36,625 nt of DNA from a virus: positions 1 to 36,625 of the IMG/VR virus record IMGVR_UViG_3300030098_001457; one strand, given 5' to 3'. Below the pieces are notes generated by a model. That model made no database searches. It was not told the DNA's origin and worked only from the letters and a program-made list of their open reading frames with translations. Position 1 is the first letter of the stretch; each line of letters starts with the position of its first letter. A program made the translations under genes and the position numbers. Below are positions 2,934 through 36,539 of this stretch, piece after piece.

Positions 2934-3184
2934 AAATAGATAAAATGACCAAAGGTAGTTGGGGTAAGATTAGAGCATATTTCAGCGTAGAGGTATCAGG
3001 CTTTACTATGAAGGGCTTTAAGCTAATAGAAGGAATGAATGGATTGTTTGTAGCACCACCATCACAAAAAGATGAAGATGGTAAGTACAACAATACAGTA
3101 TTCATAGAAAAAGAAATACTAAACACATTAACAAAGATGGCTATAAAAGAATATGGTGCTGATAGCGGCACTATGCCTTTTTAA
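2930..3184 (+). CDS. SpoVG-like regulatory protein
   Basis: The 84-residue product matches the SpoVG layout: an N-terminal beta strand pair (IRAYFSVEVSGFTMKGFKLIEG), the conserved NGLFVAPPS block (residues 37-45) and a C-terminal helix after the FIEKE strand. SpoVG proteins are small nucleic-acid-binding regulators, and phages often carry homologs in early operons. Full family length is about 80-100 residues, so it is complete. The start overlaps the previous stop (ATGA) and is preceded by AAAGGAGAGT. The C-terminus ends GTMPF, which resembles the acidic PF tip of ssDNA-binding proteins. DNA or RNA binding is inferred. Confidence 0.75.
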   Translation: MKIDKMTKGSWGKIRAYFSVEVSGFTMKGFKLIEGMNGLFVAPPSQKDEDGKYNNTVFIEKEILNTLTKMAIKEYGADSGTMPF

Positions 3185-3185
3185 T

Positions 3186-4094
3186 ATGAATGTATTAAGT
3201 CTTTTTAATGGAATGAGTACAGGACATACCGCACTTGATAATGTTGGAATCAAGGTTGGTAAGTATTATTCATCTGAAATAAAACCTGCCGCAATAAAAC
3301 TAACTCAACATCATTATCCTGATACTATTCAACTAGGAGATGTAACTAAATGGAAAGAATGGGATATTGATTGGAAGTCAATAGATATGGTGTTGAGTGG
3401 TAGTCCTTGTCAAGATTTATCACAAGCGGGTAAAATTAGCTATAAACATCAAAAAGGTTTAGAAGGTAATCGCAGTAGTCTGTTTTGGGTTTTTGTGGAC
3501 ATTCTTAATTACATAAAGGAATTAAATCCTAATGTTTTGTTTCTTCAAGAAAATGTAGGCTCTGCACCTAAAAAAGATGTAGGTATTATGTCAAGAGCAT
3601 TAGGTGTATATCCTGTAAGGATAAACTCATCTTTGGTTACTGCTCAACTTAGAGATAGATACTATTGGACAAATATTAGAACAAAAGAAGATGGCTTATT
3701 TGGAGATATTATATCTGATATACCACAACCAAAAAACAAGAAAATAGTTTTAAGTGATATATTGGTTAGTGGTAGTGTGGACAGAGATAAGCATACTTGT
3801 ATAATGGAAGGATATATTAGAAAAAATATATTTAATATTACCAAAAAAGAATGGGAAGAATATATACAAAAAAGACCAAAGGGTATGGTTACGATAATAA
3901 GTGATAGTAATTGTTTAAGGTTAGTCAATAAAACAGAGATGTGTCGATTGCAGGGTTTCCCTGATGATTGGTGCGATATATTAACTTACAAAGAAGCTGG
4001 TAGCTTATTAGGAGATGGTTGGACATTACCAATAATAGAACACATATTTAAATACATAGGAGATAATAATGAAAATCTACGAAGTAGCGTTTAA
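3186..4094 (+). CDS. dcm: C5 cytosine-specific DNA methyltransferase
   Basis: All core motifs are visible in a 302-residue protein: motif I SLFNGMSTG (5-13), catalytic GSPCQ with Cys75, the ENV motif (122-124), QLRDRYYW (154-161, motif VIII), a short target-recognition region of about 90 residues, then RLQGFP (254-259, motif IX) and GDGWTLP (276-282, motif X). It transfers a methyl group from S-adenosylmethionine to C5 of cytosine in a sequence that cannot be read off here. ATG 3186 is chosen: the in-frame ATG 3153 lies inside the SpoVG-like gene and would add 11 non-conserved residues. There is no clear ribosome site, so translation is probably coupled to the gene ending 2 nt upstream. The 3' end overlaps the next gene by 26 nt. 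Confidence 0.93.
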   Translation: MNVLSLFNGMSTGHTALDNVGIKVGKYYSSEIKPAAIKLTQHHYPDTIQLGDVTKWKEWDIDWKSIDMVLSGSPCQDLSQAGKISYKHQKGLEGNRSSLFWVFVDILNYIKELNPNVLFLQENVGSAPKKDVGIMSRALGVYPVRINSSLVTAQLRDRYYWTNIRTKEDGLFGDIISDIPQPKNKKIVLSDILVSGSVDRDKHTCIMEGYIRKNIFNITKKEWEEYIQKRPKGMVTIISDSNCLRLVNKTEMCRLQGFPDDWCDILTYKEAGSLLGDGWTLPIIEHIFKYIGDNNENLRSSV

Positions 4095-4566: not shown

Positions 4567-5403
4567 ATGAGAAACAGAATACTACAAAAGACCTTTTGGA
4601 CAAGTGAGTCAATACTTGAATTAGAGTTGTACGAGAGGTTGTTATTTCTAGGCATGACAAATCACGCAGACGATGAAGGCATTATAAAAACATCACCAAA
4701 AGCACTAAAAGCAAAAGTGTTTCCTGCGGACAATATTAGCATTAATCAGATTCAAAAAGGATTAGATAATATGCACAAATTAAGCCTAATAGAGTACAAT
4801 GAAGATAGAACTCTTTGCAGGTTTGTAAATTGGACAGATTATCAAAAAATATCAAAACCATACCCATCTAAATTTAATTTTGTCGAGGAGAGCAAAAGCG
4901 ATTCCGTGAATGGTTCAGGAATGGTTCAGGAATGTTCCATCCCTAATAATAATAATAATAGTAATAATAATAAGAAAAATAAAAATAAAGATAACTTGGA
5001 ATTTGATGTGTGGTATGCTTTATATTCTCGTAAGATTGGAAAACCAAAAGCGGAGAAGGCATTTAACCTTTGCTTACAGGTATATGACTTAGAGGTAATA
5101 ATGGATGGTACTCAGAAGTGGGTAGATTACTGGAATAACTCACATACAGAAAAAAGATATATACCACATCCAACTACATTCCTTAATCAGGAAAGGTTTG
5201 TAGATGAGCCTGATGAGTTAGAGGTAGAAGTAGAATACAGGCTAGATAGTACAGGTTCATTCTATGTAGGATTCTGTGGTAAATGTAAGAAAAGTAATTT
5301 CTACAGAAAAGATGAATTGAAGCAAGATAGTAAATGCTGCAAGGCTAAGATACTACCAAGCAGAGATGTAAATTTAATACAAGATGTAAATGCAAAAGCA
5401 TAA
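4567..5403 (+). CDS. Replication initiator / helicase-loader-like protein with C-terminal zinc knuckle
   Basis: The 278-residue protein has an N-terminal winged-helix domain of the phage replisome-organiser type (residues 5-98; LQKTFWTSESILELELYERL, FLGMTNHADDEG, KTSPKALKAKVFP). A low-complexity Asn/Lys linker follows (126-142). A second helical domain (FDVWYALYSRKIGKPKAEKAF to YIPHPTTFLNQERF, 146-211) is the one usually found at the C-termini of DnaT/DnaD-like loaders. The tail carries C237, C240, C257 and C258, a possible zinc site not usual in the family. AAGGAGAGT lies 7 nt before ATG 4567. It probably binds the phage origin and recruits the host helicase. No helicase is encoded in the window. 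Confidence 0.7.
   Translation: MRNRILQKTFWTSESILELELYERLLFLGMTNHADDEGIIKTSPKALKAKVFPADNISINQIQKGLDNMHKLSLIEYNEDRTLCRFVNWTDYQKISKPYPSKFNFVEESKSDSVNGSGMVQECSIPNNNNNSNNNKKNKNKDNLEFDVWYALYSRKIGKPKAEKAFNLCLQVYDLEVIMDGTQKWVDYWNNSHTEKRYIPHPTTFLNQERFVDEPDELEVEVEYRLDSTGSFYVGFCGKCKKSNFYRKDELKQDSKCCKAKILPSRDVNLIQDVNAKA
4908..4975 (+). repeat. Short tandem repeats in the replication-gene linker
   Basis: An 11-bp unit, GAATGGTTCAG, occurs twice in tandem (4908-4918, 4919-4929) with a partial third copy to 4938. From about 4945 to 4972 comes a run of AAT triplets that encodes polyasparagine. The AAT array keeps the frame if it changes length; gain or loss of an 11-bp unit would shift it. Both lie in the linker between the two domains of the replication protein. 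Confidence 0.8.
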
Positions 5404-5406
5404 ACT

Positions 5407-5490
5407 AAGGCGGCACTCTCACTCTCCTATGTCATTGTCTGACTCACAACGACATACCTACACCTACTTGCCGAATGAGGGTGCTGCTTT
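5407..5490 (+). promoter_or_regulatory. Structured RNA leader that hides the ribosome site of the next gene
   Basis: This 84-nt stretch folds into an outer 14-bp stem (5407-5420 with 5477-5490, three G-U pairs) that ends exactly at the base before ATG 5491. The only plausible Shine-Dalgarno site, GAGGG (5477-5481), is inside the stem. An inner hairpin pairs 5428-5433 with 5451-5456 and 5435-5438 with 5446-5449, with one A-C mismatch and a 7-nt loop. ACTCTCC (5421-5427) is left single-stranded between the two helices. It begins 3 nt after the replication-gene stop. A riboswitch, thermosensor or protein-controlled translational switch is inferred; no known riboswitch class is recognised. Confidence 0.55.
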
Positions 5491-5742
5491 ATGCTAGAGG
5501 TAGTAGGATATTATCTATGTTTTACTATTTTTATAATACAGCCTATTGAAGAAATACATAATTGCAATAATCCAAATACGATAGGAAACTACCCACATAT
5601 TTTTTGCGAGTGGAGTGATAAAGATTTTATAGAATATCCTGATGGAAAAAGAAGATTGCGACCAAAGAGAAAGTTAGATAATGTTGTAAAAGCCTATTAC
5701 AGAAAGAGGTATTATGAACGAAGGTATATGGAAAAAAATTAA
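5491..5742 (+). CDS. 83-aa protein with hydrophobic N-terminus, unknown
   Basis: The product has a hydrophobic stretch at residues 4-17 (VVGYYLCFTIFIIQ), too short for certain membrane insertion, then two cysteines and a strongly basic C-terminal third (KRRLRPKRKL, YYRKRYYERRY). No family is recognised. The start codon is at the foot of the folded leader 5407-5490, so its translation is probably controlled by that structure. It overlaps the next gene by 29 nt. Confidence 0.6.
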   Translation: MLEVVGYYLCFTIFIIQPIEEIHNCNNPNTIGNYPHIFCEWSDKDFIEYPDGKRRLRPKRKLDNVVKAYYRKRYYERRYMEKN

Positions 5743-5857
5743 ATATTGGAGAAGAAAGTACAAGGATAAGCCAAATGGCTATTTCGTGGCGATGATGATA
5801 GGCGAAGAATATGCAAGTGAGAAGTCAAAACAATCTAAGTCAAGGAGAGCAAAATGA
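5714..5857 (+). CDS. 47-aa microprotein, paralog of the one at 34877-35047
   Basis: An AGAGG ribosome site lies about 5 nt before ATG 5714. The peptide begins MNEGIWKKIKYWRRKYKDKP, continues NGYFVAMMIGEEYASEKSK and ends with a basic tail. By direct reading, 31 of the first 39 residues are identical to the microprotein on the minus strand at 34877-35047. Such conservation in two genome places shows that it is a real, selected protein. The first half is a basic amphipathic helix and the second contains an acidic EE pair. The function is unknown. The stop overlaps the next start (ATGA). Confidence 0.75.
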   Translation: MNEGIWKKIKYWRRKYKDKPNGYFVAMMIGEEYASEKSKQSKSRRAK

Positions 5858-5952
5858 ACTATGAAAAAATGATAGTGTGGTGGTGTATATTAATATTTGG
5901 TATATTATCTTGGTATGCAATATATAGAGCAGTAAGGACACTATTCTTTTGA
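5854..5952 (+). CDS. 32-aa single-span membrane microprotein
   Basis: The start ATG overlaps the preceding stop (ATGA), and AAGGAGAG lies 5-6 nt upstream. The 32 residues are dominated by one hydrophobic span (IVWWCILIFGILSWYAIY, residues 7-24), with a charged N-terminus and a basic C-terminus (RAVR). It is probably an inner-membrane peptide. The stop overlaps the TTG start of the resolvase. A similar-sized membrane peptide (34614-34712, minus strand) lies near the paralog of the preceding gene, so the two loci have a similar make-up. Confidence 0.6.
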   Translation: MNYEKMIVWWCILIFGILSWYAIYRAVRTLFF

Positions 5953-6362
5953 TACAGTTTATTGTAAACGGATTACCAAGACCACAGCAAAGGCATAGAA
6001 GTAGAGGTAGATGGACATACGACCCATCATCAGAAGAAAAGAAAGAGTTTGCCTTTCAGATAAAAAAAGATGCCCCAGTAAAGCCAATGACAGATGAACT
6101 AGATGTTCATATAAGTTTTGTATACAAGCGACCTAAAAAACATTATAGAGTTAAAGCAGGTAAGTTACTAAGAAAGCAAGAAGTACCATTCTATAAGAAA
6201 TCAAGACCTGACCTAGATAACCTAATCAAATTCTACCTAGATGCAATGCAAGGAATAGTATATAAAGATGACTCACAGATAGTATCGCTAAATGCTCAAA
6301 AAGTGTATGGAAGTGAGAATATGGTACATATAAAAATATTCTATAATAAAAAATATTGTTAA
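5949..6362 (+). CDS. rusA: RusA-family Holliday junction resolvase
   Basis: The 137-residue protein matches the RusA family in length and motifs. It has the N-terminal VNGLPRPQQRHR segment, then RPDLDNLIKFYLDAMQG (residues 86-102), with the catalytic D88 and D90, and KDDSQI with D107-D108. RusA is a homodimeric metal-dependent endonuclease that cuts four-way DNA junctions; in phages it resolves recombination intermediates before packaging. The start is a TTG that overlaps the previous stop, with AAGGA about 10 nt upstream. It cooperates in principle with the annealing protein at 1525. Confidence 0.92.
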   Translation: MIQFIVNGLPRPQQRHRSRGRWTYDPSSEEKKEFAFQIKKDAPVKPMTDELDVHISFVYKRPKKHYRVKAGKLLRKQEVPFYKKSRPDLDNLIKFYLDAMQGIVYKDDSQIVSLNAQKVYGSENMVHIKIFYNKKYC

Positions 6363-6391: not shown

Positions 6392-7486
6392 ATGGATATA
6401 CAAACAAAAACAATAGATAGCTTAATATTTGCAGAATATAATCCAAGACAGCTTACAGATGACCAATATCAACAATTAAAAGATTCTATAACAAGATTTG
6501 GCTTAGTAGACCCAGTTATTGTTAATCAGCATAAAGATAGAAAGAATATAATAGTTGGTGGACATCAGCGAGTTAAAGTGGCTAAGAAGATGGGTATTGA
6601 AGAAGTGCCTTGTGTGTTTGTGAATCTTAATTTAGATAAAGAAAGAGAATTGAATGTTAGGCTAAATAAAAACACAGGTGGTTGGGATTTTGATATATTA
6701 GCTGATATGTTTGATATGGATGAACTAATTGACTGGGGATTTAAAGAAGAAGAACTAGTAGGGTTTAGTGCAGAGGAAGAAAAAGAAGGTTTAATAGATG
6801 ATGATGAGATACCTGAAGAAGTAGAGCCAGTATGTAAGCTAGGCGATATATGGGAACTAGGAAGTCATAGGTTGTTATGTGGCGATAGCACAAAGAAAGA
6901 GAATATAGAATTATTATTGGGTGATATAAATATAGATTTATTATTAACCGACCCACCTTATGGTATTGATGCTGATAAAATGACTTTAGGAACAGGAAGA
7001 AAAGAATTTCATAGAGGAGACTGGGACAGCAAAAAGCCTGTAATTGATGTGTTTTTTGATTATTCTGATAGGTATATAATATGGGGTGGAAATTATTTTG
7101 CAGACATTCTTCCTATTAATAATGATTGGCTGTGTTGGTATAAAAAAAATGATAATTTAAGTTTTAGTGAATTTGAACTCGCTTGGACAAATCTAGGGAA
7201 AAACACAAGGCATATATCACATCATTGGGGCGGCGAGAAAAAAAAACATCCAACGCAAAAACCATTAGATGTAATTTTATGGTGCATGGGGATTATAAAA
7301 GGGTATAAAAACATATTAGACCCTTTTCTTGGTAGTGGCTCAACATTAATAGCGTGTGAAAAAACAAACAGAGTATGTTATGGAATGGAATTAGACCCAC
7401 ATTACTGCGATGTAATTATAAACAGATGGGAACAATATACAGGAAAGAAAGCGAATAAATTAAATGGCTCGACCGAAAAAACATAA
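6392..7486 (+). CDS. ParB-like domain fused to an N4-cytosine/N6-adenine DNA methyltransferase
   Basis: Residues 1-120 form a ParB/sulfiredoxin-like domain (NPRQL at 17-21, VGGHQRV at 55-61 in the nucleotide-binding box). Residues 145-360 form a class-beta DNA methyltransferase with the catalytic DPPYG (187-191), the target and support motifs HPTQKP (286-291), and the S-adenosylmethionine site DPFLGSGS (310-317). The motif order, catalytic motif before cofactor motif, defines the beta class. The acidic linker (EEEKEG...DDDEIPEE, 128-144) joins the domains. This fusion is widespread in phages and may protect phage DNA from host restriction. The ribosome site is weak. It overlaps the small terminase gene by 23 nt, so methylation and packaging genes are translated together. 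Confidence 0.9.
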   Translation: MDIQTKTIDSLIFAEYNPRQLTDDQYQQLKDSITRFGLVDPVIVNQHKDRKNIIVGGHQRVKVAKKMGIEEVPCVFVNLNLDKERELNVRLNKNTGGWDFDILADMFDMDELIDWGFKEEELVGFSAEEEKEGLIDDDEIPEEVEPVCKLGDIWELGSHRLLCGDSTKKENIELLLGDINIDLLLTDPPYGIDADKMTLGTGRKEFHRGDWDSKKPVIDVFFDYSDRYIIWGGNYFADILPINNDWLCWYKKNDNLSFSEFELAWTNLGKNTRHISHHWGGEKKKHPTQKPLDVILWCMGIIKGYKNILDPFLGSGSTLIACEKTNRVCYGMELDPHYCDVIINRWEQYTGKKANKLNGSTEKT

Positions 7487-30072: not shown

Positions 30073-30525
30073 ATGAAAATAATACAGACACATAATAAGG
30101 TTAACCTAGATTCAGTTAAAGATAATATTGTAGTGCTTGATATAAAGTATAAGGGTGTGTTTTCTGGCGAGGTTCATGGTAATACAGTTTGCGGGATAAA
30201 TGGTAAAAGGATGTTAATTGTGTTTATGTCCCCACCAGAAGAAGAGTTAATGACATACGAGGGAGACTTTAAAATAATAACATTTAAAGCTTATGATGAA
30301 AATGGGGATGAGATAAGGCAGCATTTAGTAAGTCGAATGATGGATGACTTTAAAATATCTAAATCGAAATGGAGCGTCTCAGATACAAAATATGAAGATT
30401 TTAATAAAACAAATAAATATAAAAAAATACAAAAAACGGAATTAAAGTATACTAGGATGGGTAAAGAGATAAAACTAAATGATAAAAATAAAGAAATAAT
30501 AAGGGTTAAAAATGTCCGAAAGTAG
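30073..30525 (+). CDS. 150-aa tail-region protein, unknown
   Basis: The reading frame starts one base after the tip-protein stop, with AAGGATAAT upstream. The product has an N-terminal beta-rich domain (VVLDIKYKGVFSGEVHGNTV; GINGKRMLIVFMSPP) and a strongly basic C-terminal third (KTNKYKKIQKTELKYTRMGK). It may be a small tail attachment or assembly protein. No family is recognised. It overlaps the next gene by 14 nt. Confidence 0.6.
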   Translation: MKIIQTHNKVNLDSVKDNIVVLDIKYKGVFSGEVHGNTVCGINGKRMLIVFMSPPEEELMTYEGDFKIITFKAYDENGDEIRQHLVSRMMDDFKISKSKWSVSDTKYEDFNKTNKYKKIQKTELKYTRMGKEIKLNDKNKEIIRVKNVRK

Positions 30526-32026
30526 TTATGGTTCAGTCGGAACGCCGAGAATCTTCGTAGATTACATCCAGTATGGAAAAGCTATTGGTATATTTGAAAA
30601 ATTACATTACAATCATATATCATTGTCAACGAATCCTGAAGCCCTATGGGATATGAATCCATCAAATGTTGCGACATTTGAAATTACATCTCAATCTGAT
30701 GGTAGTTTTGGAGCTTATGCTAAAATATTTTCTGATTCAGATTATGATAATCTACAATTTAGACATTTATTATCTACTGCGAACTATGGAGCATTATTAG
30801 GTCACAATATATCAACTATTGACCCTGAAAGATATGTTGAATCAAAAGTACAAGAAGGATATGCGAGTCAAAGTGGTATTTTAGGTCGTAGCACAGCTAG
30901 ACAAAATGTGGGTACGAATATATGGAAAATAAATAGCTTTGTTAGTAATAATTATGACTTGGGAGATATGAAATATTTTGATAGATTGGGTTTCAAAATA
31001 AATCGAGGAAATGAAGGTGTAGACTGGAATGTTGGTCAAGTTATAAAAATAGGAGCATTTTCATCTGGAAGATACTATGATTTTCCATATTCTCCAGACT
31101 TGGACGTAAAAATATCTTATAGGCATGAAGGCATAAAAACAGTCCGAACTTCAGGTGGAAGTGATTTAAGAAGCTATAGCTACACCAAGCCTAAAAAATG
31201 GGGAGACTACTCTCCTTGGGTTAACATAGACCTGAATGAAGGCGGAGATGAAGATTATAGTTCTATTTCAAGAACAGGCAAGAGAACCTTTGATATAAAA
31301 TATTCATACCTAGATAAAGAAAATATTTTTCCTATGAATTTTAATGGCAATATGGCTCTTGAGTATGGCTCATCTGAAGAATTGAGCGACAATTTGATAC
31401 AAAATGGGACATTTGCAGATGGTACATCTTACTGGAATGAACTAGGTCCTAGCGGAAGCGGATGGACTGATTGGAATCTTTCTGGTGGAAATGCCACCAT
31501 TGATGGGAGTCAACTAATAACCACAGCCGTATCTCAAGAAAATGTCGCAGAAATTGGGGAAACATTTAAAATTGAGTTTGATATAACATCAACGGCGGGT
31601 ACTATTCAATTTAGGTTAGGCTCACAATACGTAGAAACTGGAGGAACGGGTGGCGAGCTCATAGAAAGCACTGGAGGAGTGAAGCTTAAAAAAATATATT
31701 ACGCTGAGAATCGCTCTGCATTTGCGTACAATCAAAGTTTTAAATTCACAGCAAATAGTAGTTTTGCTGGCACTATAGATAATGTTAGCGTAAAAAAAGT
31801 TATAACACCAGCAGGGTCTTGGACTGATAGCAATACTGGTACACATAAAGATAATATTATTGGAAACTTTCTTACATTTACTATGGGCGGACAGATACCT
31901 TTTATATTCCAACCAGATAATGAAATCGCAGAGTTTGCAATTTGTAAATTAGATAAGCCGTCTTTGAAAATAAACCAAGAAGCAAATGGAGTCTATTCGA
32001 TTTCAATGAAATTTAAGGAGATATAA
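30512..32026 (+). CDS. Tail protein paralog 1 with inserted carbohydrate-binding-like domain
   Basis: The 504-residue protein shares its N-terminal start (SYGSVGTPRIFVDYIQYGKA) with the 402-residue paralog (SYGKVAKPRVYVDYVQYLKA) and its end (GGQIPFIFQPD) with both paralogs. Residues 293-430 (nt 31388-31801) are an extra domain: NLIQNGTFADGTSYWNE, a GWTDWNLSGGNATIDGSQ stretch and an end TIDNVSVKKV. That pattern, NGxF...W, then Gly-rich strands and a final IDNVxV strand, is like CBM4/9-type carbohydrate-binding modules. It is probably a receptor-binding tail component whose insertion recognises surface glycan. ATG 30512 overlaps the previous gene. Confidence 0.75.
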   Translation: MSESSYGSVGTPRIFVDYIQYGKAIGIFEKLHYNHISLSTNPEALWDMNPSNVATFEITSQSDGSFGAYAKIFSDSDYDNLQFRHLLSTANYGALLGHNISTIDPERYVESKVQEGYASQSGILGRSTARQNVGTNIWKINSFVSNNYDLGDMKYFDRLGFKINRGNEGVDWNVGQVIKIGAFSSGRYYDFPYSPDLDVKISYRHEGIKTVRTSGGSDLRSYSYTKPKKWGDYSPWVNIDLNEGGDEDYSSISRTGKRTFDIKYSYLDKENIFPMNFNGNMALEYGSSEELSDNLIQNGTFADGTSYWNELGPSGSGWTDWNLSGGNATIDGSQLITTAVSQENVAEIGETFKIEFDITSTAGTIQFRLGSQYVETGGTGGELIESTGGVKLKKIYYAENRSAFAYNQSFKFTANSSFAGTIDNVSVKKVITPAGSWTDSNTGTHKDNIIGNFLTFTMGGQIPFIFQPDNEIAEFAICKLDKPSLKINQEANGVYSISMKFKEI

Positions 32027-32027
32027 G

Positions 32028-33236
32028 ATGTCTTTGTCGATAGATTCTTATGGAAAGGTAGCGAAACCAAGGGTTTATGTGGATTATGTGCAGTACCTAA
32101 AGGCTGTAGGGTTAGTTGACAGTTATACAAGCCCAAGCGTATTAAGTTTTGATGCAAGTTTTAACCCTATGGACGCATGGGATTTTAATCCATCTAAAGT
32201 TTCAACTGGGGTAGTTGTGGATAGTGACGTAAAATATATAGCGTTTGGAGTTAATCTAAATTACTACCAAGAAACAAATAAGCCTAGGCAGGTGCAGCAA
32301 TTTATTTCTACTATAAATTATGGTGGAATTTTAAATCACAATTTTGGAGAAATTGGAATAGGTGGAACAACTAGAGATACGCATTTTAAAACAGAGAACC
32401 ACAATGAATCCCAATTAGCTAATTACATGTCGGACTACAGCGATATTCTAGGAGCGAGAAAGTTCCTAGATTTGGGCTCTACTTTATATTCAACGGGTGC
32501 TTGGTCAGGGAGAGAGTTTGAAGATGATGGAGATTTGGCTACTATATCAGGATTTCAATATGGGAACGCTGACAAGATAAAATTGGTATTTAGCTCGCTT
32601 ATTAAATACCCAGACGGTACAAATGAAGGGACATTTTTACAAGGAGAGGAATTAAGGATAGGCTCGGCGACAGTTGGGAGATATTTTGATTTTCCACAAA
32701 ATGCAGATTTGAATGTAAGTCAAACATTTGACTATTCTGGGATAAAATCAAACAAGACAATTTCTGGGGACGAAATGACACAAATTGATTATTATCAGTC
32801 TCCAAACTGGGGAGATTTTGCCCCTTGGACTAATATAGACCTACAGTCATATCAAGATATGGATTTAGATTTAGCTTATGCAGTAAACTATGAAGACAAT
32901 AAGGCAACAAGAAGAACTGGAAGAAGAAGTTTTACTGTGACATTTAGCTATATAGACAAAACTGATATGTTCCCTAAAAACTTTTATAAAAATTTAAGTG
33001 GTGATTATGAACCTATAACAGAAGGCTCTAATTCAGGCTTTACCTTTGATGAAGATGAAAGTATAGTTTCTAGTTTTTTAAATTATACTTTAGGTGGGCA
33101 AATACCATTTATTTTTCAACCAGATAATACAAAAAAAGATTTTGTGATTTGTAGATTAAGTAAATCAAATTCTACAATAAAACAAGTTGCCCCTGGGGTC
33201 TATTCTGTGACGTTTTCGTTTGTAGAGACTTGGTAA
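32028..33236 (+). CDS. Tail protein paralog 2
   Basis: The 402-residue protein is related over its full length to paralog 1 without the inserted domain, and its C-terminal third is related to the partial gene at 2-493. Shared blocks are the VDYVQYLKAVG start, ATVGRYFDFPQNADLNVS (compare SSGRYYDFPYSPDLDVK), NWGDFAPWTNIDL and GGQIPFIFQPDN. AAGGAGATATAAG precedes ATG 32028. It is the last gene of the plus-strand tail operon. Its final 37 nt overlap the last gene of the minus-strand operon. Distal tail or host-recognition role by association. Confidence 0.75.
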   Translation: MSLSIDSYGKVAKPRVYVDYVQYLKAVGLVDSYTSPSVLSFDASFNPMDAWDFNPSKVSTGVVVDSDVKYIAFGVNLNYYQETNKPRQVQQFISTINYGGILNHNFGEIGIGGTTRDTHFKTENHNESQLANYMSDYSDILGARKFLDLGSTLYSTGAWSGREFEDDGDLATISGFQYGNADKIKLVFSSLIKYPDGTNEGTFLQGEELRIGSATVGRYFDFPQNADLNVSQTFDYSGIKSNKTISGDEMTQIDYYQSPNWGDFAPWTNIDLQSYQDMDLDLAYAVNYEDNKATRRTGRRSFTVTFSYIDKTDMFPKNFYKNLSGDYEPITEGSNSGFTFDEDESIVSSFLNYTLGGQIPFIFQPDNTKKDFVICRLSKSNSTIKQVAPGVYSVTFSFVETW

Positions 33237-33580
33237 GCGTCTAGTTGGTCTTTTAATTGCCTTAATCGGCGCATATCCGCAAGGTAATCGTCATACCTAA
33301 TAACTATGTAGGCTTCGCCTCTATCCTCTCTAATAAGCTGACAATCTATAGCATCATCTTTTGGAAATATATACTCTGGTAATCGCTTTCTAATCTTGCA
33401 TTGTATGTGCGTTTCGTCATTGTACTTTTTATCTCCGATAACCATATCAACCTCTGGGTTTAATCCCATAGACCTTCCATCACTACCCCAAGCTCTTTTA
33501 GATGGGATTTCAAATAATTCTGCTTTTTTGCAACAGTCTCTTTCAAATTTGTTGCCCTTAATTTTTGACGGATGGCTCAT
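33200..33580 (-). CDS. PD-(D/E)XK nuclease-like protein
   Basis: The 126-residue protein has the spaced acidic and lysine residues of a PD-(D/E)XK fold: E13 in KGNKFERD, D45 in NPEVDMVIGD and Q60-C-K62 in HIQCK, with an AWGSDGRSMG loop (30-39). Such small phage proteins resemble Holliday junction resolvases or recombination endonucleases. The C-terminal helix is rich in Arg/Lys and Asp. AGGAGAAAA precedes the ATG at 33580. It overlaps the upstream zinc-binding gene by 23 nt and the converging tail gene by 37 nt. Confidence 0.6.
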   Translation of the reverse strand: MSHPSKIKGNKFERDCCKKAELFEIPSKRAWGSDGRSMGLNPEVDMVIGDKKYNDETHIQCKIRKRLPEYIFPKDDAIDCQLIREDRGEAYIVIRYDDYLADMRRLRQLKDQLDAYQVSTNENVTE

Positions 33581-33731
33581 GGTTTTCTCCTATTGGTAAA
33601 TAAACTAATACAAAACAATTACAATTACTACAGCTTAAATTACTTACTATGCCTTCACCTTCCATATCATAATCTTCATAATCATGGTCTCCACCCCAGA
33701 TTAACTCTGTATTGCAATGCCAACAATTCAT
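33558..33731 (-). CDS. 57-aa zinc-binding microprotein
   Basis: The peptide begins MNCWHCNTELIWGGDHDYED, then DMEGEGIVSNLSC and SNCNCFVLVYLP. CxxC at residues 3-6 and Cys34/Cys37 form a zinc-ribbon pattern with a conserved-looking ELIWGGDHD loop. Proteins of this shape are very common in phage genomes, usually of unknown function. GAGGGA is about 8 nt upstream of the ATG at 33731, which overlaps the previous stop by one base. It overlaps the nuclease gene start. Confidence 0.75.
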   Translation of the reverse strand: MNCWHCNTELIWGGDHDYEDYDMEGEGIVSNLSCSNCNCFVLVYLPIGENHEPSVKN

Positions 33732-34162
33732 TATAATTCCCTCAATTCAGTTAATGGCAGCAGTACGAGTTGCGCTAAGTCATCGTCTCCACCCATAACC
33801 ATTCTAGCTTTCTTTTTATTTAAAAAATCTTTAACTATTTCTTTTAGTTCTTTTACCTCGAATACTAAGGTATTTTTAATTTTTCCACACTCTACCAGTA
33901 CATGACACCAGTAGTCTGCTTTTGTTACAGATAAACCAGACAATTCCCCCCTATTTCTCACTTCAATAGCTATATTACCAGTCCTTACCCACATATCAAT
34001 ATCAGATTTAACCTCTATGGCTTTATTGTTCTCTGGAATTATTATATCGTACTCTTTAAAATATCCGTCTATTATCTTTGCTTGGGGGTACTTCTTTTGC
34101 ACTATATTTAAAATATAGTTTTCGTATTCTTTGCCTTCCTCTAAATCTTCCCTAAAGCTCAC
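33731..34162 (-). CDS. PD-(D/E)XK endonuclease-like protein
   Basis: The 143-residue protein shows an ordered restriction-endonuclease-like core: E12/E14 in the first helix, D39 in KEYDIIIP, then E50-V-K52 in AIEVKSD, followed by NIAIEVRNRG and a YWCHVLVE strand. This D-x10-ExK arrangement is typical of small phage endonucleases, which may degrade host DNA or act in recombination. The start is a GTG (34162) overlapping the preceding stop (GTGA). The C-terminal part is basic-helical. It is the second such fold in this operon, distinct from the one at 33200. Confidence 0.65.
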   Translation of the reverse strand: MSFREDLEEGKEYENYILNIVQKKYPQAKIIDGYFKEYDIIIPENNKAIEVKSDIDMWVRTGNIAIEVRNRGELSGLSVTKADYWCHVLVECGKIKNTLVFEVKELKEIVKDFLNKKKARMVMGGDDDLAQLVLLPLTELREL

Positions 34163-34512
34163 TTACCCCACTTATCTTTAGATAAAGCAAGTAACATATT
34201 CGCATAGTTCATCAAATCAATGCAAGTATCTTCTATAGATTCATCAGATACGCTCATATCTTCATTATGGAACATATTTTTCTTGTGGATATTAAGTAGT
34301 CTTTGAATTTTATCGTTCATGCGAATGACAACACCAAGTTGCGATAGGGCTTTGTTTGAGGAGGAGGAAATATCTAATCCTAATTTGATGTTGCCATCCC
34401 CATAATCATCTTGTTTCTTACACCAAAGCTGGTAAGCTCTGTCAAAATTATCCAAAAGTTCAGTAGTACATTGTGGATATTGTTTTTCTATTTTACTTAT
34501 TACATTATTCAT
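34159..34512 (-). CDS. DUF1599 / nucleotide-modification-associated domain 1-like protein
   Basis: The 117-residue helical protein has the pattern of this family: CKKQDDYGDGN (31-41), VVIRMNDKIQRLLNIH (61-76) and DESIEDTCIDLMNYANMLL (90-108). The family is found in phages and linked by comparative genomics to nucleotide modification or MazG-like pyrophosphatase activity; the biochemical role is not established. AAGGAAAAGAA precedes the ATG at 34512. With two DNA methyltransferases in the window it may belong to a nucleotide or DNA modification theme. Confidence 0.7.
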   Translation of the reverse strand: MNNVISKIEKQYPQCTTELLDNFDRAYQLWCKKQDDYGDGNIKLGLDISSSSNKALSQLGVVIRMNDKIQRLLNIHKKNMFHNEDMSVSDESIEDTCIDLMNYANMLLALSKDKWGK

Positions 34513-34603
34513 TTCTTTTCCTTTCTTCTAAGTCTGGGGTGGCTATGCACCAAGTTTCAATTAAGCTCCTTGACCACCCCATCCTCTTTTCGACAAGGCA
34601 CAC
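34505..34603 (-). CDS. Possible 32-aa microprotein across a hairpin
   Basis: A GTG start at 34603 opens 32 codons (MCLVEKRMGWSRSLIETW, then CIATPDLEERKRNE) that end 8 nt inside the DUF1599-like gene, the same overlap style as neighbouring genes. The ribosome site is weak. An internal ATG at 34582 has AGAGG directly adjacent. The reading frame fills the otherwise empty 101-nt gap, and contains a TGGGGTGG/CCACCCCA hairpin. Either coding or a regulatory leader is possible. Confidence 0.35.
   Translation of the reverse strand: MCLVEKRMGWSRSLIETWCIATPDLEERKRNE
34535..34581 (-). promoter_or_regulatory. Hairpin in the leader of the DUF1599-like gene
   Basis: A perfect 8-bp G-C-rich stem (34535-34542 with 34574-34581) encloses 31 nt and holds a 4-bp inner stem (34551-34554 with 34569-34572). 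On the minus strand it ends 22 nt upstream of the ATG at 34512, before the ribosome site. No U-run follows on this strand, so it is not a standard terminator. It may influence mRNA stability or translation, or may merely be part of the possible microprotein gene here. Confidence 0.45.
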
Positions 34604-34613
34604 CTATATGCAC

Positions 34614-34712
34614 CTATAATCTATCCGCTAAATATTCTATTAAATTAACCATTAAAACTATAGCCATGCAAACGACTGCTATTATTATAATGCCACTAAA
34701 TAGTAAAGTCAT
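34614..34712 (-). CDS. 32-aa single-span membrane microprotein
   Basis: The ATG at 34712 is chosen because AAAGAGG lies 7 nt upstream; the longer frame has no better start. The peptide (MTLLFSGIIIIAVVCMAIVL, then MVNLIEYLADRL) is one long hydrophobic span followed by a short polar tail. It probably inserts into the inner membrane. It overlaps the end of the upstream zinc-binding gene by 17 nt. The function is unknown. Confidence 0.6.
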   Translation of the reverse strand: MTLLFSGIIIIAVVCMAIVLMVNLIEYLADRL

Positions 34713-34905
34713 CTTTAAACCTCTTTTTGTTTTTACTGCCATACTCCCTGATAGCACATTTCTCGCAAATAATAAGTTCCTTTTTAGGGTATTTTGGAAG
34801 TATCTCATACGTTTCATATACATATCTAAACTGACCTATATTGTATTTTTTACACATTTTACAAGTAAATGGACTCTTAGGTAATTTTTGCTTTACGTCC
34901 CCCAA
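34696..34905 (-). CDS. 69-aa zinc-finger-like protein
   Basis: The product has two CxxC pairs, CKMC and CEKC, about 30 residues apart with aromatic and basic residues between them (YNIGQFRYVYETYEILPKYP), and a basic C-terminus (YGSKNKKRFKD). This points to a zinc ribbon or finger. TTG 34905 is chosen because AGGAG lies 5 nt upstream. A GTG at 34944 (13 residues longer, AGGAG 7 nt upstream) is possible but would overlap the upstream microprotein by 68 nt. The function is unknown. Confidence 0.65.
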   Translation of the reverse strand: MGDVKQKLPKSPFTCKMCKKYNIGQFRYVYETYEILPKYPKKELIICEKCAIREYGSKNKKRFKDDFTI

Positions 34906-35047
34906 CCTTACTCCTTTGCGATGGAGATAGCTTTGATTTTTCACTTGTATACTCCTCGCCTATCATCATTGCCACATAATATCCATTAGGCATATCTTTA
35001 TATTTATTTCGCCAGTATTTAATTCTTTCCCACAGACCTTTGTTCAT
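34877..35047 (-). CDS. 56-aa microprotein, paralog of the one at 5714-5857
   Basis: AGGAGAGTAA precedes the ATG at 35047. The peptide begins MNKGLWERIKYWRNKYKDMP, then NGYYVAMMIGEEYTSEKSK, with a basic C-terminal tail. It shares 31 of its first 39 residues with the plus-strand microprotein at 5714. The pair shows that the shared 39-residue core is under selection. It directly follows the folded leader 35061-35138, which could control it. The function is unknown. Confidence 0.75.
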   Translation of the reverse strand: MNKGLWERIKYWRNKYKDMPNGYYVAMMIGEEYTSEKSKLSPSQRSKVGGRKAKIT

Positions 35048-35060
35048 TTACTCTCCTATT

Positions 35061-35138
35061 AAAAAAATTGGCTACCCTTGGGAGCTTTATAAGAAAAGTT
35101 TGCAGGTGAAGAAAGGAAGAAACCTGCGTAGGGTAGCC
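35061..35138 (-). promoter_or_regulatory. Three-way-junction RNA with a terminator-like U-run
   Basis: On the minus strand this gap folds into an outer 9-bp perfect stem (35070-35078 with 35130-35138), an inner 6-bp hairpin (35102-35107 with 35122-35127, 14-nt loop) and a second 6-bp hairpin (35083-35088 with 35095-35100, one G-U pair, 6-nt loop). After the outer stem comes AA and seven U residues (35067-35061). Four bases later, AGGAGAG (35051-35057) serves the microprotein. A consensus AAGGAGG (35137-35143) without a nearby start codon overlaps the first bases of the outer stem. It is a candidate transcription attenuator or riboswitch-like element; no known class is recognised. Confidence 0.55.
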
Positions 35139-35149
35139 TCCTTAATATA

Positions 35150-35308
35150 CTATAACTGCGTTATCTTTTCAACTATTTTGTCTATCTCTGCTAGAGTCTT
35201 TTCCGCTATCATGTCATGCTCTGCTATTGCTTTTAATCCTTCTTTAGCAATTTTCATAGCTTCGTATAATATCTCTAGCTCTTGATATATTTTATTCGTC
35301 TCGTTCAT
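35150..35308 (-). CDS. 52-aa helical small protein
   Basis: ATG at 35308 is supported by AGGA about 6 nt upstream; a longer in-frame ATG lies inside the previous gene. The product is a single amphipathic helix pattern (YQELEILYEAMKIAKEGLKA, then MIAEKTLAEIDKIVEKITQL) likely to form a coiled coil. It overlaps the upstream gene by 17 nt. No family is recognised. Confidence 0.6.
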   Translation of the reverse strand: MNETNKIYQELEILYEAMKIAKEGLKAIAEHDMIAEKTLAEIDKIVEKITQL

Positions 35309-35732
35309 ACTTTTCCTGCATTCTTTTAAAAGCTTTTGACATTGCAACCTTCTTTAAATACTCTGGATTATCTTCAGTTTGCATTTGTTCTTTCTGTTCT
35401 ACTTGTATAGTAGGATTCTCCTTACTCATCCAGTTCATTAAAAACTTCTTAAAATCTTTCTTATAATTGCTAGACAACCATAACTTCGCTCTTTTACAAG
35501 CAAAGTCTACATCTATCGCAGGATATGCGCTTTTTAATTCATTATACCACTCGGATTCTGTGGTATTTAGGCTATCAAAAAAATTATCAAGCCTATCTTT
35601 ATAAGGAAGTGCTTTAGCTTGGCTACGCTTGTCATTATTTTTAATATAACGCTCCTGCAACCAAGCAAACACTTTATCTCCGTCAGCTAGATACTGCTTT
35701 CCGTTCTTCTCTATCATAATCTTGATAGACAT
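35292..35732 (-). CDS. Helicase-loader-like protein (DnaT/DnaD-type C-terminal domain)
   Basis: The 146-residue protein has an N-terminal part (MIEKNGKQYLADGDKVFAWL) and a central block, NELKSAYPAIDVDFACKRAK, then LWLSSNYKKDFKKFLMNWMS (residues 65-103), which matches the C-terminal domain common in phage replication or helicase-loader proteins: YPxxDxxxxxxxAxxWLxxN...KxFLxNWL. A winged-helix domain is absent, so it is a short form. It overlaps the upstream gene by one base. It may work with the plus-strand replication protein at 4567. Confidence 0.6.
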   Translation of the reverse strand: MSIKIMIEKNGKQYLADGDKVFAWLQERYIKNNDKRSQAKALPYKDRLDNFFDSLNTTESEWYNELKSAYPAIDVDFACKRAKLWLSSNYKKDFKKFLMNWMSKENPTIQVEQKEQMQTEDNPEYLKKVAMSKAFKRMQEKYERDE

Positions 35733-36073
35733 TAGAAGGGCATCTCTCCTTCTGCTTTAGCAGTTTGAGGTGCTGATTTAACTTGTGGTGCATCAGGGTC
35801 ATACTTCTCCCAGCTCTTTGGAAATAACTTATTCCCAACTTTTGTTTGACCAAATGGCAACTTCCAACCTTTATTATCCTTATCTCTGATTTCGTAAAAG
35901 TCATTACCATCATGCTCTCTCACGCTATAAGCTAGATTTGTTCCCTTTGTTACAGGGTTTATTTCTTGACAAAAGACTTCCTCAAACATAGCAAGCTGCT
36001 TAAATATCTCTTTAACATCTCCCTCTGCTTCTAAACAAAGCCTTTTATTTGGTGACCAGTATTTCACTTTCAT
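35732..36073 (-). CDS. Possible ssDNA-binding-like protein with acidic MPF tail
   Basis: The 113-residue product has a beta-rich N-terminal domain (KYWSPNKRLCLEAEGDVKEI; FEEVFCQEINPVTKG; SVREHDGNDFYEIRDK; WKLPFGQTKV) and ends with a Pro/Ala linker and AEGEMPF. The end resembles the acidic PF tip of single-stranded DNA-binding proteins that recruits partners. The SpoVG-like protein ends in a similar GTMPF. OB-fold identity is not shown by sequence. It sits in an operon with a loader-like protein. It overlaps the upstream gene by 29 nt. Confidence 0.5.
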   Translation of the reverse strand: MKVKYWSPNKRLCLEAEGDVKEIFKQLAMFEEVFCQEINPVTKGTNLAYSVREHDGNDFYEIRDKDNKGWKLPFGQTKVGNKLFPKSWEKYDPDAPQVKSAPQTAKAEGEMPF

Positions 36074-36539
36074 TTGTTTTCTCCTTTACTAGTTGTAAAT
36101 TACTTGCTTTTCTATTAAAATTATCAATTATCTTTATTAATCTATGGTTGGCGTCAAAAGCGAAATAAGGTCGTTGAGACTTATCAAACCATTTTTCAGA
36201 TTCACTATTAGAATATGCTGTGGTATTTATATTAAAATTGACCTTTCTATCTTGCACGTATTCCATGATGGCTACAATATAAAAATTAGCTACATAGTTT
36301 AAACTTTCTCTATTTATGATTGTATACCTTTTTATAAATAAATTAAATATATCAAGTATTTCATTTGATGTATGTAAATCTAGAAGTCCATACATAACGT
36401 TTCGTGTATCTTGATAATCCTCATCATCCTTTAATGTCTGCTTATCTATATTTGTTTGTGCTTTTTGTAAAAAATCCTCTACATAATTTTCATTTTCCTG
36501 TGGGGTGAATCGCTCTGCAAACATATCTCCTAAATTCAT
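36045..36539 (-). CDS. 164-aa hypothetical protein
   Basis: AAGGAAGAG lies 5-6 nt upstream of the ATG at 36539. The protein is acidic at its N-terminus (MNLGDMFAERFTPQENENYV), helical in its centre (NEILDIFNLFIKRYTIINRE; VANFYIVAIMEYVQDR) and ends with a Lys/Arg-rich helix. No family is recognised. It heads the ordered part of the minus-strand operon, directly before the possible ssDNA-binding protein. Confidence 0.6.
   Translation of the reverse strand: MNLGDMFAERFTPQENENYVEDFLQKAQTNIDKQTLKDDEDYQDTRNVMYGLLDLHTSNEILDIFNLFIKRYTIINRESLNYVANFYIVAIMEYVQDRKVNFNINTTAYSNSESEKWFDKSQRPYFAFDANHRLIKIIDNFNRKASNLQLVKEKTNESEILVTK

Follow-up and report, generated by a model that had tools for sequence, protein, structure and literature searches.

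Host-takeover proteins of phages, including TraR/lambda Orf73, Aqs1, T7 Gp0.4, Gp4.5 and GIL01 Gp7 (PMC11323111), are very small accessory proteins, as the microprotein characterized in this work appears to be, but no sequence relation between that class and the microprotein was found. The Zn-ribbon microprotein of pelagiphages and cyanophages (e.g., gp08 of HTVC027P) is similarly small and is a neighbor in the same genomic islands; however, it belongs to a different family and is very common, whereas the microprotein is rare. The Zn ribbon was recovered in at least 587 confirmed IMG/VR contigs, as well as in pelagiphage HTVC027P, cyanophages and HMO-2011, and its records are mostly unnamed, being called hypothetical or, in some, 'protease'. 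Regarding described protein families, phrog_33942 (PHROGs v4, 60 aa, function unassigned) displays a weak collinear match to residues 5-34 of one copy of the microprotein (copy 1), which is not significant (E 0.031; 0.096 for the copy of a sister phage, and none for copy 2 or the homolog in contig L009).

The window, i.e., the whole stretch of DNA analyzed, is a 36.6-kb virus record of a tailed phage encoding a terminase, RusA, a DnaD-like initiation protein, DNA methyltransferases and an exonuclease, and its first 25 kb had no match at the DNA level among cultured phages. Two relatives were used for comparison: an almost identical phage (L003/L012, contig G001), which extends 2.9 kb past the right end of the window, and a sister phage (L004/L010/L011, contig G002). 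The 29,091-bp contig of the sister harbors an exact 92-bp terminal repeat and its genes are collinear across the join, which together indicate a complete circle of 28,999 bp (29.0 kb). The term marine is applied to these phages on account of the relatives of their Zn ribbon, namely those of pelagiphages, cyanophages and marine single-cell viruses, and not of sample records.

Two peptides of the window, of 47 aa (copy 1) and 56 aa (copy 2), align without gaps over 47 residues, 35 of which are identical, and the 31 of 39 shared N-terminal residues reported in the preliminary description were confirmed by alignment, both ORFs having an ATG, a stop codon and a good Shine-Dalgarno (SD) sequence. 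This similarity is far beyond chance (E 6.5e-24 in an all-against-all BLASTP of window ORFs of at least 30 codons), and the only other paralogs detected by BLASTP among the six-frame ORFs were three tail genes. At the DNA level, the copies constitute an inverted repeat with 80% identity across 123 nt. Over the 47 codons compared, pS was 0.84 and pN 0.14 (pN/pS 0.17), with a marked imbalance between synonymous and non-synonymous differences (Fisher p 4e-12) and a third-position excess (p 0.003). Since the differences are overwhelmingly synonymous, both copies encode a protein under constraint, and the sequences indicate that selection on the protein has long maintained both reading frames. Thus, the earlier proposal of a selected microprotein held when the suggested comparison of synonymous and non-synonymous change was run, as purifying selection between the copies was revealed. 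The copy-1 orthologs of the window and the sister are separated by 3 non-synonymous changes and no synonymous one. As this number is too small to interpret, constraint is visible in the longer comparisons only.

Copy 1 is located in the plus-strand replication region, with the following features:

4567..5403, plus strand: replication initiation protein (DnaD-like; phrog_270, E 5e-25)
5409..5492, plus strand: long-stem hairpin upstream of the copy-1 mini-operon (fold z -4.3; no match to covariance models R1/R2)
5491..5742, plus strand: 83-aa protein with an N-terminal hydrophobic segment (homolog at 3042-3317 of contig L024, E 4e-11), sharing 29 nt at its 3' end with the start of copy 1
5714..5857, plus strand: microprotein copy 1, 47 aa, net charge about +9 (ATG, stop; SD AGAGG; homolog 93.6% identical in L004/G002)
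5854..5952, plus strand: 32-aa single-membrane-span peptide directly after copy 1 (ATGA overlap; conserved in L004)
5949..6362, plus strand: RusA-like Holliday junction resolvase (phrog_140, E 5e-34)

Exactly the same arrangement is found in the sister, including a microprotein of 47 aa. Readthrough of the copy-1 stop codon was also considered and rejected: the TGA overlaps the ATG of the next gene, and beyond it the resemblance amounts to a few K/R residues.

Copy 2 is found in a minus-strand operon of small, early-type genes. Its structured leader is followed by the microprotein, an 82-aa CxxC protein, a 32-aa membrane peptide and RNA element B, after which come further genes and the Zn ribbon:

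35070..35138, minus strand: structured leader directly upstream of copy 2, with a 9-bp GGCTACCCT/AGGGTAGCC stem followed by a T run (fold z -2.1)
34877..35047, minus strand: microprotein copy 2, 56 aa, net charge about +8 (ATG, stop; SD AGGAG; identical in the near-identical phage L003/G001)
34696..34944, minus strand: 82-aa CxxC...CxxC small protein, downstream of copy 2 and overlapping its end (from sequence)
34614..34712, minus strand: 32-aa single-membrane-span peptide, about 165 nt after copy 2 (from sequence)
34514..34616, minus strand: RNA element B, a hairpin, an invariant GUCGAAAAGAG and a covarying hairpin (99 bits with model R1; fold z -3.1)
33558..33731, minus strand: 57-aa Zn-ribbon microprotein (CWHCN..IWGGDHDYEDY), widespread in marine phages and adjoining microprotein homologs elsewhere
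33200..36539, minus strand: early operon with copy 2 (not present in the circular sister genome)

This operon spans at least 6 kb, as it comprises 33.2-36.6 kb of the window and 2.9 kb of the near-identical contig. A sigma-70-like TTGAAA-17-TATATT is present at 35172-35144, just upstream of the leader, the count of such sites being not above chance. The placement of the two peptides in oppositely oriented operons, each near a folded RNA (5409-5492, plus; 35138-35070 and 34616-34514, minus) and a 32-aa membrane peptide, therefore agrees with what had first been noticed; the two membrane peptides show no mutual resemblance.

Homologs of the microprotein were identified in 4 contigs besides the window (L003, L004, L009 and L025). 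Peptide-pattern scans of IMG/VR recovered, in addition to G001 and G002, only L009, a contig of 9 kb that shows hardly any similarity to the window in DNA and whose 53-aa homolog is 55-62% identical and overlaps the start of the Zn-ribbon gene by ATGA. Matches to the Zn ribbon yielded 80 neighborhoods for inspection, and among these a profile of the four known members detected a diverged one in L025, a 47-aa ORF (MGTKNRTWKRVQKIRAELEKSPNGWPLCKMVGAEYFENRAPKNWKDA) downstream of the Zn ribbon (by 94 nt) and of a 33-aa membrane peptide (by 9 nt) (HMM E 0.012; 15.9 bits vs at most 10.6 in 5000 shuffles; BLASTP E 1e-4 against the sister copy). Most members share the core W-K-[RK]-[IV] ... P-N-G-[YW]-x(4)-M-[IV]-G-x-[EQ]-Y, with P-N-G, M, G and Y invariant across the family. 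L025 contained the sole further member in 38 Zn-ribbon contigs searched whole. The suggested search for homologs succeeded in IMG/VR contigs; in cultured phages, tblastn of 50,697 phage records with the copy 1, copy 2, L009 and L025 members returned none. GTDB genomes searched with two pattern sets and NCBIfam gave no match either, the best Pfam hit (PF01265, 14.7 bits) fell below its curated cut-off of 23.8, and searches of PDB by sequence and by fold and of BFVD produced chance-level matches only. The 51-aa proteins of L024 and L028, which lie near a Zn ribbon and carry an SPS motif, were examined as candidate homologs and discarded, since the profile did not match them.

Judged from their sequences, both peptides belong to a new, rare and previously unrecorded family of small basic phage proteins. 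The preliminary description would have been set aside by a peptide confined to this genome and free of purifying selection; instead, homologs occur in other phages and constraint is evident between the copies. A protein-coding family too short for annotators was thus found by reading the raw sequence, and both the synonymous sites and the homologs in other phages confirm it. A previously unrecorded microprotein family present twice in one phage is a real, and unsurprising, kind of object.

The contigs L009, L024, L025 and L028 have genes of an early/replication region in common, and in L009 and L025 the microprotein lies beside the same small Zn-ribbon gene within replication/early regions; both also encode a Sak/DUF1071-like annealing protein, an assignment tested for L025. 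The Zn ribbon of L009 is 68% identical to that of the window, and an 81-aa protein of L009 resembles the 82-aa CxxC protein, as judged by eye only. Structured RNAs precede the small genes by the Zn ribbon in the four contigs, as follows (contig coordinates):

L009: sigma-region-4-like protein and microprotein; RNA element B at 3134-3237
L024: 51-aa protein plus a homolog of the 83-aa protein encoded in the window; RNA element A, before the small-gene island, at 2706-2807; RNA element B at 2813-2885
L025: membrane peptide and microprotein; RNA element A, before the small-gene island, at 5893-5980
L028: AbrB-like protein (homolog in G001) and 51-aa protein; RNA element A, before the small-gene island, at 2376-2473; RNA element B at 2481-2574

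The microprotein is probably drawn from a pool of interchangeable small genes, together with the Zn ribbon, the membrane peptide of about 32 aa, the 83-aa protein and the AbrB-like protein, and these genes and the structured RNAs would make up variable islands within replication/early regions across a marine-type phage group. We infer that the islands are expressed early. The case also points to the presence, in marine-type phages, of small-gene islands that include structured RNAs.

The phage of the window would carry two such islands, one in the plus-strand replication operon, also present in the sister, and another in the minus-strand early operon, which the sister lacks. When the proteins of the minus-strand operon, all but two of the smallest frames, were compared by tblastn against G002, no homolog other than the microprotein itself was found. 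Absence at that place from a close relative, by which accessory islands (phage morons) are recognized, holds for copy 2 and its operon only; copy 1 is common to the window and the sister. As the whole operon is present in one phage and absent from the other, gain or loss of a module is favored, and the second copy would have arrived, or in the sister left, with the whole module rather than by local duplication. We infer either a gain in the window phage or a loss in the sister. On the whole, we lean towards a new rare family that resides in islands of interchangeable small genes, with copy 2 gained or lost along with its module. The window has tail-type paralogs at 1-493, 30512-32026 and 32028-33236, and the sister has one at the matching place; hence, the difference between the two phages in the minus-strand operon goes along with one in the tail paralogs.

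The preliminary description had regarded the pair as a duplication retained for reasons of dosage or timing. That claim did not survive in its original form: with synonymous sites saturated (pS 0.84), the split between the copies is old and a recent duplication is excluded, and the closed circle of the sister contains copy 1 only, without the whole copy-2 operon. An old duplication within the phage lineage, with both copies kept for two times or two amounts, is consistent with the constraint on both copies, with their position in oppositely oriented operons that are likely transcribed differently, and with a protein identity between them (35/47) that exceeds the identity of either to L009 (28-29/47). 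We nevertheless regard it as rather unlikely, given the missing operon in the sister and the lack of any recent duplication. In the protein tree, copy 2 grouped with the L009 homolog and not with copy 1, this grouping being weak (86/66; 47 columns, rooted on a very long branch). As the copies belong to different transcription units, different timing is possible; however, no argument from dosage or timing is needed, because a foreign early module gained, or a module lost in the sister, explains the pair, and module gain is more likely than the dosage or timing view.

The structured RNAs raise two further explanations, in which RNA and microprotein would act together. RNA element B displays a variable first hairpin, the invariant GUCGAAAAGAG, a second hairpin with compensatory changes, and GACU, just before a gene start, and model R1 matches it in the window, L009, L024 and L028 only. 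In RNA element A, a long stem closes a three-way junction that has a GNRA-capped arm. Several island RNAs have pyrimidine-rich loops, and in RNA B the invariant segment is placed between two variable helices. Rfam gave no match in the window at the gathering threshold, nor at E up to 3 for the RNA elements of L009, L024, L025 and L028. Because both window copies and the members in L009 and L025 each have a structured RNA upstream of them within their island, and the microprotein is strongly basic, it could be proposed as the RNA-binding partner of these RNAs in a phage ribonucleoprotein control cassette. This seems to us improbable: the RNAs adjoining the copies do not form a single family, the hairpins adjacent to copy 1 and copy 2 matching neither model R1 nor R2, and RNA B is also present in two contigs, L024 and L028, in which no microprotein member was found. 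We give equally little credence to an undescribed RNA-protein regulatory cassette shuffled among marine phages and present twice here. Far less probable still is a unit resembling type I toxin-antitoxin systems, with the membrane peptide as toxin, the structured RNA as antitoxin and the microprotein as helper; each copy is indeed near a 32-aa single-span peptide and a folded RNA, and the same trio is seen in L025, but the RNAs are on the genes' own strand and not antisense, and the membrane peptides near the two copies show no sequence relation to each other and match no family. The RNA elements themselves are a more unusual part of the islands than the microprotein and, being absent from Rfam, the more rewarding target. 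The loop of RNA A contains UCCUUUC (L024, L028) or UUCUUUUCC (L025), which resembles the 16S anti-Shine-Dalgarno end, and UCCUUUC is also contained in the loop of the copy-2 leader (35138-35070 of the window).

With regard to the protein, the net charge of the family members ranges from +6 to +11, as counted from the sequences, and no membrane span is evident. The AF2 models agree in three short helices separated by the PNG turn, with an SPS helix cap, at low confidence (pLDDT 65-68, pTM 0.37-0.38), and Foldseek searches with these models returned nothing of note. No Pfam helix-turn-helix or PDB match accompanied the three low-confidence predicted helices, and a helix-turn-helix around VAMMIGEEY was rejected, as the positions expected to be hydrophobic are charged. 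A strongly positive protein of three short helices might, early in infection, bind to nucleic acid or to an acidic protein of the host; based on these models, nucleic-acid binding or host takeover is a tentative and somewhat doubtful assignment. The early/replication neighbors, the mosaic neighborhood and the basic charge fit an accessory early protein that would bind nucleic acid or a host protein, and the microprotein gene is probably an accessory early gene of a kind usual in phages.

Other differences were observed among the compared genomes. At positions 6392-7486, the window encodes a ParB-like N-terminal domain and a DNA methyltransferase domain within one 364-aa protein; the sister has no such protein at this position, and its terminase genes come directly after RusA. 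In addition, a PD-(D/E)XK-nuclease-like gene of the near-identical phage G001 (L012, 1552-2643) seems to be split into three overlapping frames.
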